Notes under the pieces: model-generated | Database searches by the model: none | The model's input: only the letters and a program-made list of their open reading frames with translations | What the model was told of the DNA's origin: nothing | Assembly (NCBI RefSeq): GCF_003387155.1 | Contig: NZ_QUMT01000003.1 | Span: forward strand, 1,080,233-1,144,232 | From: Roseateles depolymerans | GTDB taxonomy: Bacteria > Pseudomonadota > Gammaproteobacteria > Burkholderiales > Burkholderiaceae_C | Reading direction: 5' to 3' | Length of the DNA stretch: 64,000 bases | Part shown: piece after piece, positions 33,446-46,825 of the stretch | Layout of the letters: each line of letters starts with the position of its first letter | Numbering within the stretch: position 1 is the first letter of the stretch | Made by a program: the position numbers and the translations under genes

Positions 33446-33568
33446 ATGTCGTGGGCGCATAGATTGATGCGCAAAGGCAAGTGGTACCGGTGTCGTTGGC
33501 AGTGGATCGATGCCACCCCGATGGGTGAAGACTCTCAGCAACTGGTAGTCAGCGAGCTAAAGCGCTAG
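33446..33568 (+). CDS. Possible 40-residue basic, Trp-rich small protein or gene remnant
   Basis: Reading ATG at 33446: MSWAHRLMRKGKWYRCRWQW and then a more acidic second half ending in VVSELKR. GGAGG lies two bases before this ATG, which is too close, but is well spaced for the internal ATG at 33467. The composition looks protein-like rather than random. No family recognised. It may be a true microprotein or a leftover of a lost gene at the edge of the MoxR region. Confidence 0.3.
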   Translation: MSWAHRLMRKGKWYRCRWQWIDATPMGEDSQQLVVSELKR

Positions 33569-33611
33569 CGTGCCATCTAGCCCCGGCAGACATTGGCGCA
33601 GTCTGCGGTGC

Positions 33612-33695
33612 CTACCCGTACAGCTCGCTAATCTGTTTTTCCAAGCGAATCAACCACTTCGGCAGATCTGATTCCTTAACCTCCAAACCTGGCAC
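33612..33695 (-). pseudogene. Protein-like fragment (C-terminus of a lost gene?)
   Basis: On the minus strand, from a GTG at 33695, the frame reads about 27 residues including ESDLPKWLIRLEKQISELYG before a TAG. It has balanced, helix-forming composition unlike the shadow frames around it. There is no room for a full gene because the next plus-strand gene begins at 33738. It is best explained as a decayed end of a gene, or chance. Confidence 0.22.
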
Positions 33696-33737
33696 ACCTG
33701 TTGCAAATCGGGAGGCGTCACCGTTGATCCGGCCCCG

Positions 33738-34517
33738 ATGCGCCTCGCTGAACCGACCCTGCCCTCCATGCACGCCATGCCCGCCATCATTGCCGACGCC
33801 TACCAAGTGTTCGGACGTCACCCCGCCCCCAGCCTGCCGCTGGACGCCTGCCCCTGCTGCATGGATCCGGAGCTTCAGGAGGACCTGCGCAAGCTGCCTT
33901 TGCGCCAGCTCTCCCGGCACTACTTCTCCGAGTACAACAGCGCCGCCAAGGGCGAGGTTCAACCGGTCTCCGAAGTCCTCTACTTCCTGCCGCGTCTGCT
34001 CGAACTGGTCGCTCACGGGGAAGAGATTCACCACTCCATCGAGCTCTATCTGAACCGCATTGGCCGCTGTCCGCAAACCACCTTCAACGAGTCTGAACAG
34101 GCCATCCTTGATCGATTCGCGCTCACCTACTTCGCTGACCATCTGGCGTCGCTTGAGCATCGAGTGCTCAAAGACGCCATGTCGGTATTGCTGATGTTCC
34201 ATATCGGAGGCCTGCGCCTGGAGCCGTTGCTGGACTATTGGCTCAACTGCCAAGACCCAAGGTCCACGGTTCACTATGTCGAAACCTGCTATTGGGATTT
34301 CCTGGAGGGCCGGGAAGTGTCCAACCCATTCGCCGACGACCTCCCCGACTTTCGCCAAACCATCGCGCAATGGATGCTCGCACCGGCCCACCGGGCCGTC
34401 TTTGCCAACAAGCTGATGCAGCCGACATTCCTGCGCTTGGTGGACCAGAAACCCAAGAGCATGAGCATGAGCTTCAGAGAGGTTGTCGATGCCGTCTCGG
34501 CCTTCCTGTCTGAATGA
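33738..34517 (+). CDS. Uncharacterised protein, first gene of the MoxR module
   Basis: 259 residues, no membrane segment or signal peptide, largely helical. A CPCC motif near residue 38 (LDACPCCMDPE) is followed by LPLRQLSRHYF and EVLYFLPRLLELV (about 79-91). This arrangement of a Cys pair, 'PLRxLS' and 'FLPRLLEL' resembles a widespread hypothetical family whose name I cannot give. The start is uncertain: MHAMPAII (33771) is an alternative, and neither has a good ribosome-binding site. It precedes the MoxR gene by 42 bp on the same strand and probably acts with it. Confidence 0.75.
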   Translation: MRLAEPTLPSMHAMPAIIADAYQVFGRHPAPSLPLDACPCCMDPELQEDLRKLPLRQLSRHYFSEYNSAAKGEVQPVSEVLYFLPRLLELVAHGEEIHHSIELYLNRIGRCPQTTFNESEQAILDRFALTYFADHLASLEHRVLKDAMSVLLMFHIGGLRLEPLLDYWLNCQDPRSTVHYVETCYWDFLEGREVSNPFADDLPDFRQTIAQWMLAPAHRAVFANKLMQPTFLRLVDQKPKSMSMSFREVVDAVSAFLSE

Positions 34518-34559
34518 ACAGGCCCGTCACGCCTGAACCGCCAGTCCCATCCATTTCCC

Positions 34560-35639
34560 ATGCATTCAACCGTCACCCTTTCCATCAAGCAGATTCATGA
34601 GCTGCTGCTGAACGTCGCCCCCGTGCGCCCAGTCTTCATCTGGGGGCCGCCGGGTGTTGGCAAGAGCTCGCTGGTGGAGCAATTCGCGTCCTCGCTGGGC
34701 TTGGAATGCGTTGCACTGCTGGGCTCGCAGTTGGCGCCCGAGGACTTGATCGGCATTCCAAAGATTGAGGGCGCGGTGAGCCGCTTCTATCCGCCCTCGA
34801 TGATCGTGCGCGACCGCGAATTCGTGCTTTTCATTGATGAGCTGAACATCGCCTCGCCGGAAATCCAGAAGGCCTTCTACAGCCTGATCCTGGACAAGCG
34901 AATCGGCGAATACCGGCTTCCCGAGGGCTCCATCATCATCGGCGCCGGCAACCGGGCCCACGATGCCGCTCTGGCCAAGCAAATGCCCAGCGCCCTGGTC
35001 AACCGCATGGTTCACGTGCATTTGCGGGCGTCGCACCGGGAATGGCTGGAATGGGCTGAAGCGAACGCCATCCACCGCTGGGTGCTGGACTATGTCCGCT
35101 CGCGACCCAGCCAGCTCTCCACCGACGTGCCGCCGGCCAAGGAAGAGCCGTTCTCGACCCCTCGCAGCTGGCACGCGGTCAGCGATGCGCTACACGCCTT
35201 TGGTGAGGACATCTCGCCGGACCACCTCGATGCGCTCCTGTTTGGCAGCCTGACGCGCGACCATGCCGTCGGCTTCAAGGCCTTCCTGAAGCAGATCCGC
35301 AATCAGTTCAGTGTCCACAAGATCCTCAAGGGCGAGGAAACCTGGCCCAGTGCAGCAGAGGACCGTGACTTGACCTACTTCCTGACCCAGAGCCTGCGCG
35401 ACCTGCTGGTCAAGGAGTTGCCCGATCGCGAAACGCAGCTCAGCCGCGAAAGCCGAGAGCTGGCCCAGTCGGCCAAGCTCGCGCTGAAATCCCTGGCCCG
35501 CATTGACGGCGAGCTTGCGCAACTGGTGCTCACCGACAACGACGCCGGAGACCGCGTGCCGGACTGGTTCGTCCTGGACATCGCCAAAGAGTTGCCTCGC
35601 CTGCTGCAGCAAAGGACCCCCGATGGGCAGCAAAAGTAG
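34560..35639 (+). CDS. MoxR-type AAA+ ATPase
   Basis: 359 residues. The AAA+ core occupies about 15-260: Walker A WGPPGVGKSSLVEQF (about 24-38), the MoxR-like LLGSQLAPEDLIGIP, Walker B VLFIDELNIASPE (about 89) and GSIIIGAGNRAHDAA as sensor 1. The C-terminal third is helical. MoxR proteins act as chaperone-like motors together with a VWA-domain partner, here the next gene, whose start lies inside this gene (17-bp overlap). The partner's MIDAS site is expected to contact the ATPase ring. Confidence 0.9.
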   Translation: MHSTVTLSIKQIHELLLNVAPVRPVFIWGPPGVGKSSLVEQFASSLGLECVALLGSQLAPEDLIGIPKIEGAVSRFYPPSMIVRDREFVLFIDELNIASPEIQKAFYSLILDKRIGEYRLPEGSIIIGAGNRAHDAALAKQMPSALVNRMVHVHLRASHREWLEWAEANAIHRWVLDYVRSRPSQLSTDVPPAKEEPFSTPRSWHAVSDALHAFGEDISPDHLDALLFGSLTRDHAVGFKAFLKQIRNQFSVHKILKGEETWPSAAEDRDLTYFLTQSLRDLLVKELPDRETQLSRESRELAQSAKLALKSLARIDGELAQLVLTDNDAGDRVPDWFVLDIAKELPRLLQQRTPDGQQK

Positions 35640-37434
35640 CCGCGCCAAGCGCAAGCCTCAACCCCACGAGGAGGCCATCGAGAAGCTGCGAGCGCACTAC
35701 CTGTTGGGACCGGTGGCCCACACGCTGACCTTCTATCCGAGCGCTCGGGCGGGGCGGGCGCAAGTGTCACCCAAGGCCTATTGCCAACTCGAAGGCAGCG
35801 GCACAGTGATCTTCAATGAGGAACTGAAGCTCTCGACCTCGCAGTGGCTTGGCGTCTTTGCGCTGATCGCATTGGTCTACGCCGTGGGCGGCCCGCGTCG
35901 CCTGCCTGTTCCCTCATTGACGTCTGATCTGGCTGCGCAGATCGCCGCGCTGCATTGGTGGCATCAGCTCAAGGTCGGCGAGTTGCCGGAACACATCGAG
36001 CTGCCGCCGGAGATCTTGCAATGGGGACGTCAGCCCATCGAGCTGATCGCCACGCGCCTACGTTCCGAGCCGCCCAATGAGGTTCTTGACGGCGACTGGA
36101 CCTTGACCCGGTCGCCCGAGGCCCTCATGCGTACCGCAGCGGAAGTCCCGGCCATTGCCTACCGCCAGCCGGTGGACCATGAGCAACTGTTCGCCCAGGC
36201 CCTGGTGGACAACGCCAAGCGGGCCCTGCAGCTGCAGCACGAGGCCAGTCACCCGGTCAGGCCTGGCCATGACCCCAACAGCACAGGCGCCAAGGCGAAG
36301 CGTTGGCTGATTTCCCACTACCCGCTGCTGGGCTCCCTGCTCACCAGTTTCGAGCTGGTGGAAGACGCAGACATCTGCGAGCGCCTGGGCATCCACATCG
36401 CCGCCATCCAGGTCGGGATCGGTGAGATCTACTTGAACCCGCGCCGGCAACTGGGTCTGGAGCAGGCCAAGTTCGTCTTGGCCCATGAAATCCTGCATGC
36501 CGGCTTGAACCACGCCAGCCGACGACAGGGCCGCGATCCTTACCTGTGGAACGTGGCCTGCGACTTCGTGATCAACGATTGGCTGGTCAGCATGAATCTC
36601 GGCATGCCGCCCGACAGCGGGCTGCTCTTCGATGAGGAGCTTCGTGGCCTGCCCGCAGAACACATCTACCTAAAGCTGGCCGCAGATCTGCGCATACGCC
36701 GCAAGCTCACGACCTTGCGAGGTGACGACGTTGACATCCTGGACGAGCGCCCCGGCCGCTTCTTCACCGACCGCGAGGAATTCTGCAGGCGAGCGTTGCT
36801 GCAAGGCCTGGACTACTCCCAGGCCACGGGGCGCGGCTTGTTGCCCGCCGGCTTGATTGAAGACATCCGCACCTTGAATCAACCCGCCATCCCGTGGCAA
36901 GCCAAGCTCGCGGAATGGATACAGGAGCGTTTCCCGGTCCCAGAGCGCCGGCGCAGTTGGGCGAGACCGTCGAGGCGGCAGTCCACCACGCCGGAGACCC
37001 CCAGACCGCGTTTCGTGGAGCCTGAGGAAGAGCGGATGACGCGAACCTTCGGGGTGATCGTCGACTCCAGCGCGTCCATGGACCGCGCGGACCTGGGCAA
37101 GGCGCTGGGGGCCATCGTGGCCTACTCGCAGGCGCAGGCCGTGAAGCAGGTCCGCCTGGTCTACTGCGACGCCCAGCCCTATGACGAGGGCTACGTGCAG
37201 GTGGAGTCCCTGGCCTCGCGCGTTCGGGTGCGGGGGCGAGGAGGCACGGTGCTGCAGGCTGCGGTCAACCTGCTTCAGGGGCAAAAGGATTTTGCGAAGG
37301 AGTGCCCCATCCTGATCATCACGGACGGCTTCTGCGAGCCAGACCTGCAGGTGGTCCATGACCATGCATTCCTGCTCAGCACTGGCATGCGCCTGCCGTT
37401 TGCGACCCGCAAGCCTGTTTTCCAGATGAGCTGA
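35623..37434 (+). CDS. DUF2201-like protein: metallopeptidase-like domain plus VWA-like C-terminus
   Basis: 603 residues from ATG 35623 with AAAGGA six bases before; the start overlaps the MoxR gene by 17 bp, so the two are translationally coupled. The centre has AHEILHAGLNHASRRQG (about residue 286), which contains HExxHxxxxxH, the zinc-peptidase form, followed by NVACDFVINDWLV. The C-terminal 140 residues form a VWA-like domain with the MIDAS-like DSSASMD (about 482-488) and a later RGRGGTVLQ. An Arg/Pro-rich linker separates the domains. Likely the effector or substrate-binding partner of MoxR; whether the protease centre is active is unknown. Confidence 0.88.
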   Translation: MGSKSSRAKRKPQPHEEAIEKLRAHYLLGPVAHTLTFYPSARAGRAQVSPKAYCQLEGSGTVIFNEELKLSTSQWLGVFALIALVYAVGGPRRLPVPSLTSDLAAQIAALHWWHQLKVGELPEHIELPPEILQWGRQPIELIATRLRSEPPNEVLDGDWTLTRSPEALMRTAAEVPAIAYRQPVDHEQLFAQALVDNAKRALQLQHEASHPVRPGHDPNSTGAKAKRWLISHYPLLGSLLTSFELVEDADICERLGIHIAAIQVGIGEIYLNPRRQLGLEQAKFVLAHEILHAGLNHASRRQGRDPYLWNVACDFVINDWLVSMNLGMPPDSGLLFDEELRGLPAEHIYLKLAADLRIRRKLTTLRGDDVDILDERPGRFFTDREEFCRRALLQGLDYSQATGRGLLPAGLIEDIRTLNQPAIPWQAKLAEWIQERFPVPERRRSWARPSRRQSTTPETPRPRFVEPEEERMTRTFGVIVDSSASMDRADLGKALGAIVAYSQAQAVKQVRLVYCDAQPYDEGYVQVESLASRVRVRGRGGTVLQAAVNLLQGQKDFAKECPILIITDGFCEPDLQVVHDHAFLLSTGMRLPFATRKPVFQMS

Positions 37435-37480
37435 CCGGGAGGATTCAAACCTCTGGTCTTGCGAGCACCGTGCGGCCAAG

Positions 37481-37569: not shown

Positions 37570-38373
37570 TCACCAGAACTTCCACCACGGCTTCGTCTCT
37601 GAGCGGCTCGCCCCGTCGGTTGCTGAGCCCGTCGCTGCAGTGGGTGCGGGTGCAGGTGCGCCCCCTGCGGCCGCAGAGCTCCCCGCTGCGGCCTCCAGCG
37701 CGGCCAAGGCCTCAGCTGTCACCAGCGACGGCCGTCCCGGCGCCACGTAGTGATACTGGCCCGACGACTTCAGCTTGTCATGAAGCGCTTTGCGCCCGGC
37801 CGCACGCGCCTGGGACACATAGTGAAGTTCCTCGGCCGTCAGCAATTGGACGCTCGCGAGCACCACTTCGCCGCCAGGAAACTCCACCGTCTTGGGAATC
37901 TCGGGATGGTCCACGCCGATCATGACGCCGACCATCCCCGCTTCATTCTGGTAGTCCTCCAGTCCCATCTCATCGGCGAACAACTCCATGGTGACCACGC
38001 CATGGGTCTTGACGAACTGCGCCACCTGCCCCGAATGGGCCGCCTGCTGCGCCACCGCATGAACCAGCTTGAACACGGGGCTGTCGGTCACCGCACCCGC
38101 AAGAGGGGCCTGCGTCTCGGCGTAGATCTCAATGCCGAAACCCGCGTTAGGCGCTTCGGAGTCGTCAAACGGATCGGACAGACCATTGGAGATGACCAGC
38201 GTGTGGCTGCCGCGTCGCACCACACTGAAGGCCTGCCGCAGGGCCGGCCAGCTCGGGCCTCCCATGAACGCCGGGTTGATGATGTGGCCGATGACGTCCG
38301 GATCCACCTGGCCGAATGAGGCATACAGCGCGTCGCGCGCCTGGCAGGTGGCATCAAACAGGGACTGAGACAT
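37570..38373 (-). CDS. Suppressor-of-fused (SUFU)-like domain protein
   Basis: 267 residues from ATG 38373 (MSQSLFDATCQARDALYASFG). The central region with LVISNGLSDPFD and GFGIEIYAETQA, then VQLLTAEELHYVSQARAAG, follows the pattern of bacterial SUFU-domain proteins. The C-terminus is an Ala/Pro-rich linker ending in KPWWKFW, a possible short docking peptide. Bacterial SUFU proteins are often immunity-like or of unknown role. It is convergent with the MoxR module and may or may not belong to it. The family call is by eye. Confidence 0.6.
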   Translation of the reverse strand: MSQSLFDATCQARDALYASFGQVDPDVIGHIINPAFMGGPSWPALRQAFSVVRRGSHTLVISNGLSDPFDDSEAPNAGFGIEIYAETQAPLAGAVTDSPVFKLVHAVAQQAAHSGQVAQFVKTHGVVTMELFADEMGLEDYQNEAGMVGVMIGVDHPEIPKTVEFPGGEVVLASVQLLTAEELHYVSQARAAGRKALHDKLKSSGQYHYVAPGRPSLVTAEALAALEAAAGSSAAAGGAPAPAPTAATGSATDGASRSETKPWWKFW

Positions 38374-38526
38374 GAACCGTTTCCAATCAATGAGGTTGCG
38401 AAGGACGCGCTCCACGATATAAGTTCGCGTCCACGCGCAACACCACCTCAGGGGGGACGTGCTTCAGGATCTCGCCGCAAGCGTGCAAAACTCAACGCAC
38501 CTCGGCCGTCTCACGGACGGCGCCGA

Positions 38527-46461: not shown

Positions 46462-46572
46462 CAGGGACCCAGCGGTAGCAGCACGGCCTTCAAGGCCGCA
46501 CCCGGATTGCAATGACGACTGGTTGATGAGGCCCGGGCGAACACCCACATGGCCCCGGTCTCCCAGGACGAT

Positions 46573-46635
46573 GTAGGCATCATCAGCGTCACGACGAGGG
46601 CGTCGTTCGGCGGTTCGCGGAGGAATGCCATCTCC
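46573..46635 (-). ncRNA. Fluoride riboswitch (crcB motif) in the leader of the CLC-F gene
   Basis: On the minus strand, reading 5' to 3': GGAGATGGCATTCCTCC, then AACCGCC, a hairpin ACGACG-CCCT-CGTCGT, then CTGATGATGCCTAC. These are the conserved parts of the crcB aptamer in order, including GGCAT that can pair with ATGCC as the pseudoknot. The gene start is 111 bp downstream. Between them CGGCCTTGAAGGCCG (around 46485-46499) forms a hairpin near the start codon and could be the expression platform. It switches the fluoride exporter on when F- binds. Confidence 0.92.
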
Positions 46636-46825
46636 GTGCGGCGATTCTAGCCACGGACTCGGCTGCACGCTGCCTGCGTCAAATCCGGCCCTGTGCGAAG
46701 AATTCACGACGCCCGGCCGTGAAGCTGTGCCAAATGCCCCCGATCCAGGGGCTGACCGCTTGCAGGCCCGCCGTGCGGCCAGAGGACAATCAGGCCTTCT
46801 GCCCTGCCCGAAGAAGGTTTGCCTG

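Follow-up and report, generated by a model that had tools for sequence, protein, structure and literature searches.

A putative RtcR-controlled module of a MoxR ATPase, a metallopeptidase-VWA protein and an unannotated partner in Roseateles depolymerans

The RNA-repair enzymes RtcB and RtcA act on 2',3'-cyclic phosphate ends. Their operons are controlled by RtcR, which is reported to sense 5' tRNA fragments with a 2',3'-cyclic phosphate (PMC7790460). The Escherichia coli rtcBA promoter has been described as comprising an RtcR upstream activating site, an integration host factor (IHF) site and a sigma-54 site, and a hybrid promoter has been reported that keeps the upstream activating site and the IHF site of E. 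coli rtcBA but has its -24/-12 element exchanged for that of nifH (PMC9650030). For Salmonella, the table of a 2016 review gives the RtcR site as not known (PMC4987338). Here we analyzed a 64,000-nucleotide stretch of Roseateles depolymerans (contig NZ_QUMT01000003.1, positions 1,080,233 to 1,144,232), hereafter referred to as the window, which contains a module of three genes: gene 1, whose product belongs to no Pfam family, gene 2, encoding a MoxR ATPase, and gene 3, encoding a metallopeptidase-VWA protein (Table 1). Its promoter, and the genes that its relatives accompany, suggest that this module is probably a satellite of the Rtc RNA-repair response under the control of RtcR, and that it may handle protein on damaged RNA.

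Judged from the predicted elements upstream of gene 1, the three genes very probably form a sigma-54-driven transcription unit of the RtcR (RNA-repair) regulon, located away from rtcBA. The genome contains 22 perfect sigma-54 sites, compared with 5 for a reversed control pattern; one is that of the window and another lies directly upstream of rtcB. An IHF-like site (≤1 mismatch) accompanies only these two, a CTAG-N8-CTAG dyad (≤2 mismatches) accompanies five (the window's, rtcB's and three others), and all three elements occur together only at the window and at rtcB. The window's IHF-like site, with one mismatch, is centered 36 bp upstream of the sigma-54 site, and its dyad, a predicted site whose motif was inferred from promoters, is exact and lies at 117 bp, as in the rtc promoter of locus L094. 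This arrangement resembles that of the family's rtc promoters, in which an IHF-like site is common at about 36 bp (of the 15 other family-type promoters listed, 14 have it at 35-37 bp) and many carry the dyad 105-149 bp upstream, with exact dyads at 105-125 bp in L094, L097, L099, L104 and L106. Genome-wide, exact CTAG-N8-CTAG was found at 7 places in 5.66 Mb, compared with 357 per strand for the reversed control GATC-N8-GATC. When the three elements were scored together in 41 sequences, total mismatches of ≤4 were reached by the window (1), the genome's own rtcB (2), L061 (4) and 13 of the 17 gene-1 loci, compared with a best score of 7, and none of ≤3, in 960 kb of Markov control sequence. 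L054 was left out of this scoring because its contig begins 36 bases before the sigma-54-like site.

The genome carries one rtcR (PF06956 match, G000:C4:298096-298641, minus strand), one rtcB and one rtcA, the latter two at G000:C4:309498-311665, about 11 kb from rtcR. The module is not in the rtcBA transcription unit proper, since these ligase and cyclase genes are on contig C4 and the window is on contig C3. An exact dyad was also observed at G000:C4:298667-298682 (L114 6667-6682), about 20 bp upstream of the rtcR open reading frame (ORF), without a nearby sigma-54 site.

We further compared the surroundings of gene 1 in an order-level sample of 399 genomes, taken from a larger group, and in 399 genomes of the family. 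Gene 1 was present in only four order genomes, namely R. depolymerans itself and three members of another genus in which it stands alone, and in 18 family genomes, R. depolymerans included. Across the 17 other family genomes, whose surroundings were all taken with mechanical gene starts, rtcB lies ≤2.4 kb from gene 1 in 14 (same strand in 13, ≤200 bp in 11). In most of these gene-1/rtc operons RtcR is divergent and is followed by TROVE or slipin (Band_7), with YrlA RNA separating TROVE from gene 1 in L094 and L095, and a tRNA-like RNA, matched in part (positions 5-66 of the 71 in the model), was found upstream of or at the slipin ORF start in L097, L099, L100, L103, L105 and L106. In L096, from the same genus as the window, a Ro60/TROVE gene lies 46 bp from gene 1, and the contig also carries rtcB at a distance of 30 kb; YrlA RNA was not found at this locus. 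The complete set is joined in L106 (genome G712), with the order RtcR(divergent)-slipin-gene1-rtcB-rlaP-MoxR-gene3-rtcA. In G713, apparently identical with the Allofranklinella genome that contains L066 (identical rtcB coordinates), the rtc/gene 1 operon and the MoxR/gene 3 pair are on different contigs. Other genes observed among the rtc genes encode an ADP-ribosylglycohydrolase, a metallo-beta-lactamase-fold protein and a THAP4-like heme-binding domain, Fic, PIN and zf_Tbcl (L100 7978-8970; L105 12647-14487; L061 5238-6683; L037 7797-8222; L074 6524-6916), and a dense tRNA gene array with a GOLLD RNA lies about 4 kb downstream of the rtc operon of L094 (16077-20000).

The MoxR/peptidase pair is more widespread, with gene 3 matches in 88 of the 399 order genomes, of which only G272 (75%) and G299 (55%), besides R. 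depolymerans itself, are long-form matches above 50% identity. A scan of named genomes identified 23 pair loci in betaproteobacteria, Lysobacteraceae, actinobacteria, Lachnospiraceae, Abditibacterium and others, and at all 23 gene 3 either overlaps a MoxR gene or follows one at a distance of up to 609 bp. At least five loci (L054, L061, L062, L071 and L074) have rtcB in their flanks, a lower bound because some contigs are short. These include the window's nearest gene 3 relative among genomes (75%), L054, with the order TROVE-rtcB-MoxR-gene3-rtcA-rlaP. An RtcB gene occurs somewhere in 19 of 22 pair-locus genomes, a count not used as support because its background rate is not known. No shared neighbor was found at the stand-alone pairs, where the 10 neighbor proteins scanned were mixed (sulfate transporter, HipA, HAD and others).

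Several observations weigh against placing the module in the RtcR regulon. A perfect sigma-54 site alone is not rare, as 29 of 100 shuffled 64-kb windows have one, and the dyad of the genome's own rtcB has two mismatches, a level also reached at three other sigma-54 sites. The E. coli K-12 rtcBA promoter lacks the CTAG-N8-CTAG dyad, although its sigma-54 element is perfect and its IHF-like sites deviate at a single position. The dyad was read by eye off the same promoters, so the three-element score is partly circular and not independent, because the motif derives in part from the promoters scored; the genome-wide counts are independent. No rtc promoter was found at stand-alone pairs, and L061 alone among the 22 scored pair loci (of 23) reaches the threshold. 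Gene 1 lacks rtc neighbors in L098, L102 and three Neisseria-like genomes, gene 3 is missing from 15 of the 17 other gene-1 genomes (present in G712 and G713), and 18 of the 23 pair loci have no rtcB in the available flanks. The linkage of gene 1 to MoxR, which the initial annotation had made the touchstone of its three-gene module, is thus nearly absent elsewhere, with the shared operon of L106 on the other side; the trio is better explained because gene 1 and the MoxR/peptidase pair are each separately linked to rtcB operons.

The 18 loci without rtcB also count toward the strongest alternative, a generic MoxR-VWA chaperone or peptidase pair in housekeeping or client maturation (as NorQ/NorD load iron), next to which gene 1 and the sigma-54 promoter would stand by chance. 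NorQ/NorD is a studied MoxR-VWA pair (PMC9976466) and was counted in its favor, and pairs also occur on cyanobacterial, actinobacterial and Deinococcus plasmids, whose annotated stretches name no rtc gene. However, gene 1 and the pair recur independently in rtc operons, and the combination of dyad, IHF-like site and sigma-54 promoter agrees with rtc promoters, which makes a generic pair unlikely. We consider a functional tie of the module to Rtc repair highly likely.

It is less probable still that the module is a ternary MoxR-VWA system against invaders in which gene 1 serves as sensor or third component. Ternary MoxR-VWA systems have been described in conflict systems, where the metallopeptidase domain is reported as rare among effectors (PMC7159879), and among part of the relatives gene 1 is consistently present as a partner. 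However, it accompanies rtcB mostly without MoxR, and no VMAP, beta-propeller or FtsH partner was seen. In PADLOC, genes 1 and 3 matched no family and MoxR had only weak matches to generic AAA models (best E 3.5e-4), gene 2 scored 18.3 bits against the bpMoxR model (cut-off 27), gene 1 is without a Pfam match, and no defense genes were seen beside the module. Of the "stress or anti-phage system" suggested in the initial annotation, stress points in the right direction, while the anti-phage part found no direct support. The module is not a named defense system; it is more probably an outlying part of a known stress response that includes an ATPase-peptidase and a component without annotation. 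A phage-derived virion-assembly pair, as the MoxR and metallopeptidase-VWA proteins of group 2.2 jumbo phages, is highly improbable, since only one of the 152 phage records matching gene 3 covers ≥80% of it, the other 14 among the matches listed are confined to the peptidase part, about one third of the protein, with about 28% identity, no phage genes were recognized next to the module, and two scans found no gene 1 relative on IMG/VR contigs.

The proteins themselves were compared with known domains. Gene 2 matches AAA_5 (PF07728, E 3.1e-11), and its best PDB sequence match is midasin (6or5, E 6.5e-14). Gene 3 matches the DUF2201_N metallopeptidase (PF13203) with 95.7 bits against a cut-off of 23.2, and the DUF2201 VWA-like domain (PF09967) with 22.8 bits, below the cut-off of 26.4; its sole PDB match is MJ1213, over about 36 residues. 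Across 40 long-form relatives (38-93% identity to the window), the zinc-site residues H288, E289, H292 and H297 and all five residues of the metal-ion-dependent adhesion site (MIDAS) are invariant; the geometry of both sites was assessed from these alignments. The peptidase context of HEILHAGLNH and the C-terminal MIDAS-like motif, both read from the letters by the initial annotation, are borne out by this conservation, the latter even with PF09967 below its cut-off, and the loss of zinc residues that would have spoken against a peptidase was not seen in any of the 40. The N-terminal 180 residues of gene 3 are missing from short forms. Comparison of this N-terminus with the protein's own peptidase domain by hhalign gave a probability of 98.7 with all 40 rows, 97.9 with 15 distant rows and 65.7 with the 25 near rows that include the window, compared with 0.1, 0.1 and 0.4 for the controls (VWA part, gene 1 and reversed peptidase profile). 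Some relatives keep the H-x3-H spacing without the glutamate. These results suggest a pseudo-peptidase domain, perhaps for client binding.

Gene 1 had no match in Pfam, NCBIfam, PADLOC or the PDB, and its 30 aligned relatives gave no convincing Pfam family (best E 0.0062 to 0.062, 1-2 members each). The CPCC motif noted earlier is present (C38-P-C40-C41), with C38 and C41 invariant in 30 of 30 relatives. A single-sequence search yielded 14 homologues, and a 30-sequence profile 203 matches at E ≤ 0.001, including Neisseria, Cardiobacteriaceae, Bacteroidia, a planctomycete and Actinoplanes among the 120 listed. An unannotated gene-1-like stretch (59% covered, 34% identity) was observed at L177 5001-5453, in a record of 4.8 Mb that bears the label of an E. 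coli H240 plasmid.

Table 1. Features of the module and its control region (positions in the window)
Feature	Position	Strand	Remarks
CTAG-N8-CTAG dyad, candidate RtcR upstream activating site	33565..33580	+	center 117 bp upstream of the sigma-54 site
IHF-like site AATCAACCACTTC	33648..33660	+	one mismatch to the consensus WATCAAN4TTR
Perfect -24/-12 sigma-54 element TGGCACACCTGTTGC	33690..33704	+	33 bases before the gene 1 ATG
Gene 1	33738..34517	+	259 aa, without Pfam family; invariant Cys pair; family tied to rtcB operons
Gene 2	34560..35639	+	MoxR-type AAA+ ATPase, 359 aa
Gene 3	35623..37434	+	metallopeptidase-VWA protein, 603 aa
N-terminal domain of gene 3, about aa 22-174	35686..36144	+	degenerate peptidase-domain copy, by profile comparison
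DUF2201_N metallopeptidase domain of gene 3	36283..36984	+	HEILHAGLNH at 36484-36513
VWA domain of gene 3	37054..37431	+	MIDAS residues D481, S483, S485, T542, D568

All three ORFs stand as first described, on the plus strand, including the 17-bp overlap of genes 2 and 3 (35623-35639); gene 3 starts at ATG 35623, where the mechanical ORF list instead has TTG 35503. The module had been called less GC-rich than its flanks, which holds only in part: genes 1, 2 and 3 have 0.601, 0.627 and 0.645, compared with 0.678 for the whole window, but the immediate neighbors, PEPCK and a SUFU-domain gene, also have 0.65. Gene 1, MoxR (E ≤ 0.001) and DUF2201_N are each present as a single copy in the genome. 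The SUFU-domain gene (PF05076, 27.6 bits, cut-off 25) lies at 37570-38415 on the minus strand, convergent with the module. Directly at the gene 3 stop codon, a minus-strand stretch (37433-37464) resembles the 3' part of a tRNA, with a T-arm-like segment (GAGGTTTGAATCCTC); it received no tRNA call and has no second copy in the window at ≤3 mismatches, and might be what is left of an integration site. ARAGORN found no tRNA in the window, and nothing convincing was found for non-coding RNA within the module. A Fluoride riboswitch (RF01734, 41.2 bits, gathering 34) lies at 46567-46644 on the minus strand.

These features allow a tentative account of the biochemistry, in which the module would remodel or cut protein on damaged RNA. 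RtcR would switch on the module, the MoxR ring and its MIDAS-bearing VWA partner would exert force on proteins that sit on damaged RNA or on stalled ribosomes, the zinc peptidase would cut the remodelled protein, and gene 1 may act as an adaptor to the RtcB machinery. The conserved zinc and MIDAS residues fit the earlier proposal of a protein-remodelling or proteolysis device, and midasin as the best PDB match of gene 2 fits a ribonucleoprotein client but proves nothing. In a broader and more doubtful extension, bacterial RNA repair might possess, next to sealing by RtcB and end-healing by RtcA and RlaP, a third arm that is proteolytic. This arm would consist of a minimal ATPase resembling midasin, its MIDAS partner, a zinc peptidase and a pseudo-peptidase domain; RtcR would deploy it even from a distant locus, it would strip proteins from damaged RNA or from stalled ribosomes or cleave them there, and gene 1 would be its dedicated adaptor to Rtc. 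If the satellite reading is true, an unnamed protein family and an ATP-driven peptidase join the RNA-repair response, and the RtcR regulon can reach beyond rtcBA within a genome. CTAG-N8-CTAG offers a concrete binding-site hypothesis for RtcR, and the poorly understood MoxR/metallopeptidase-VWA pairs gain a testable setting.

Among described systems, the group 2.2 jumbo-phage pair is similar in that an AAA+ MoxR protein adjoins a VWA protein with an N-terminal metallopeptidase, and differs in the virion-assembly role proposed there (PMC7824862), whereas the window protein adds a degenerate peptidase-like domain and an rtc-type promoter. Short-form DUF2201 proteins (about 420 aa), common in the same order, share the peptidase and VWA parts and an upstream MoxR but lack the N-terminal extension, and rtcB was found in none of their 10 neighborhoods (L038-L047). 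Midasin (Rea1), a eukaryotic ribosome-remodelling AAA+ protein with a MIDAS domain, is one giant chain of six AAA modules; it is the closest PDB sequence match of the MoxR ATPase, but the likeness is limited to one AAA module and midasin has no peptidase. No paper linking MoxR with RtcB operons was found in the open-access literature searched, which did not cover the main 2016 RNA-repair survey (Burroughs and Aravind, NAR). That survey reportedly covers TROVE, Band-7 and RlaP, and some of the linkage of gene 1 or the pair to RNA repair may already be in print. Compared with the Rtc operons themselves (rtcBA; Salmonella rsr-yrlBA-rtcBA), the unit in the window has no ligase or cyclase and stands on another contig than rtcBA, and gene 1, MoxR and the peptidase-VWA protein are not named in the portions of published rtc accounts available to us. 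It shares with these RtcR-controlled operons a promoter with predicted sigma-54, IHF-like and upstream-dyad elements, and both gene 1 and the MoxR/peptidase pair are found inside such operons together with rtcB, rtcA, rlaP, TROVE/YrlA or slipin.

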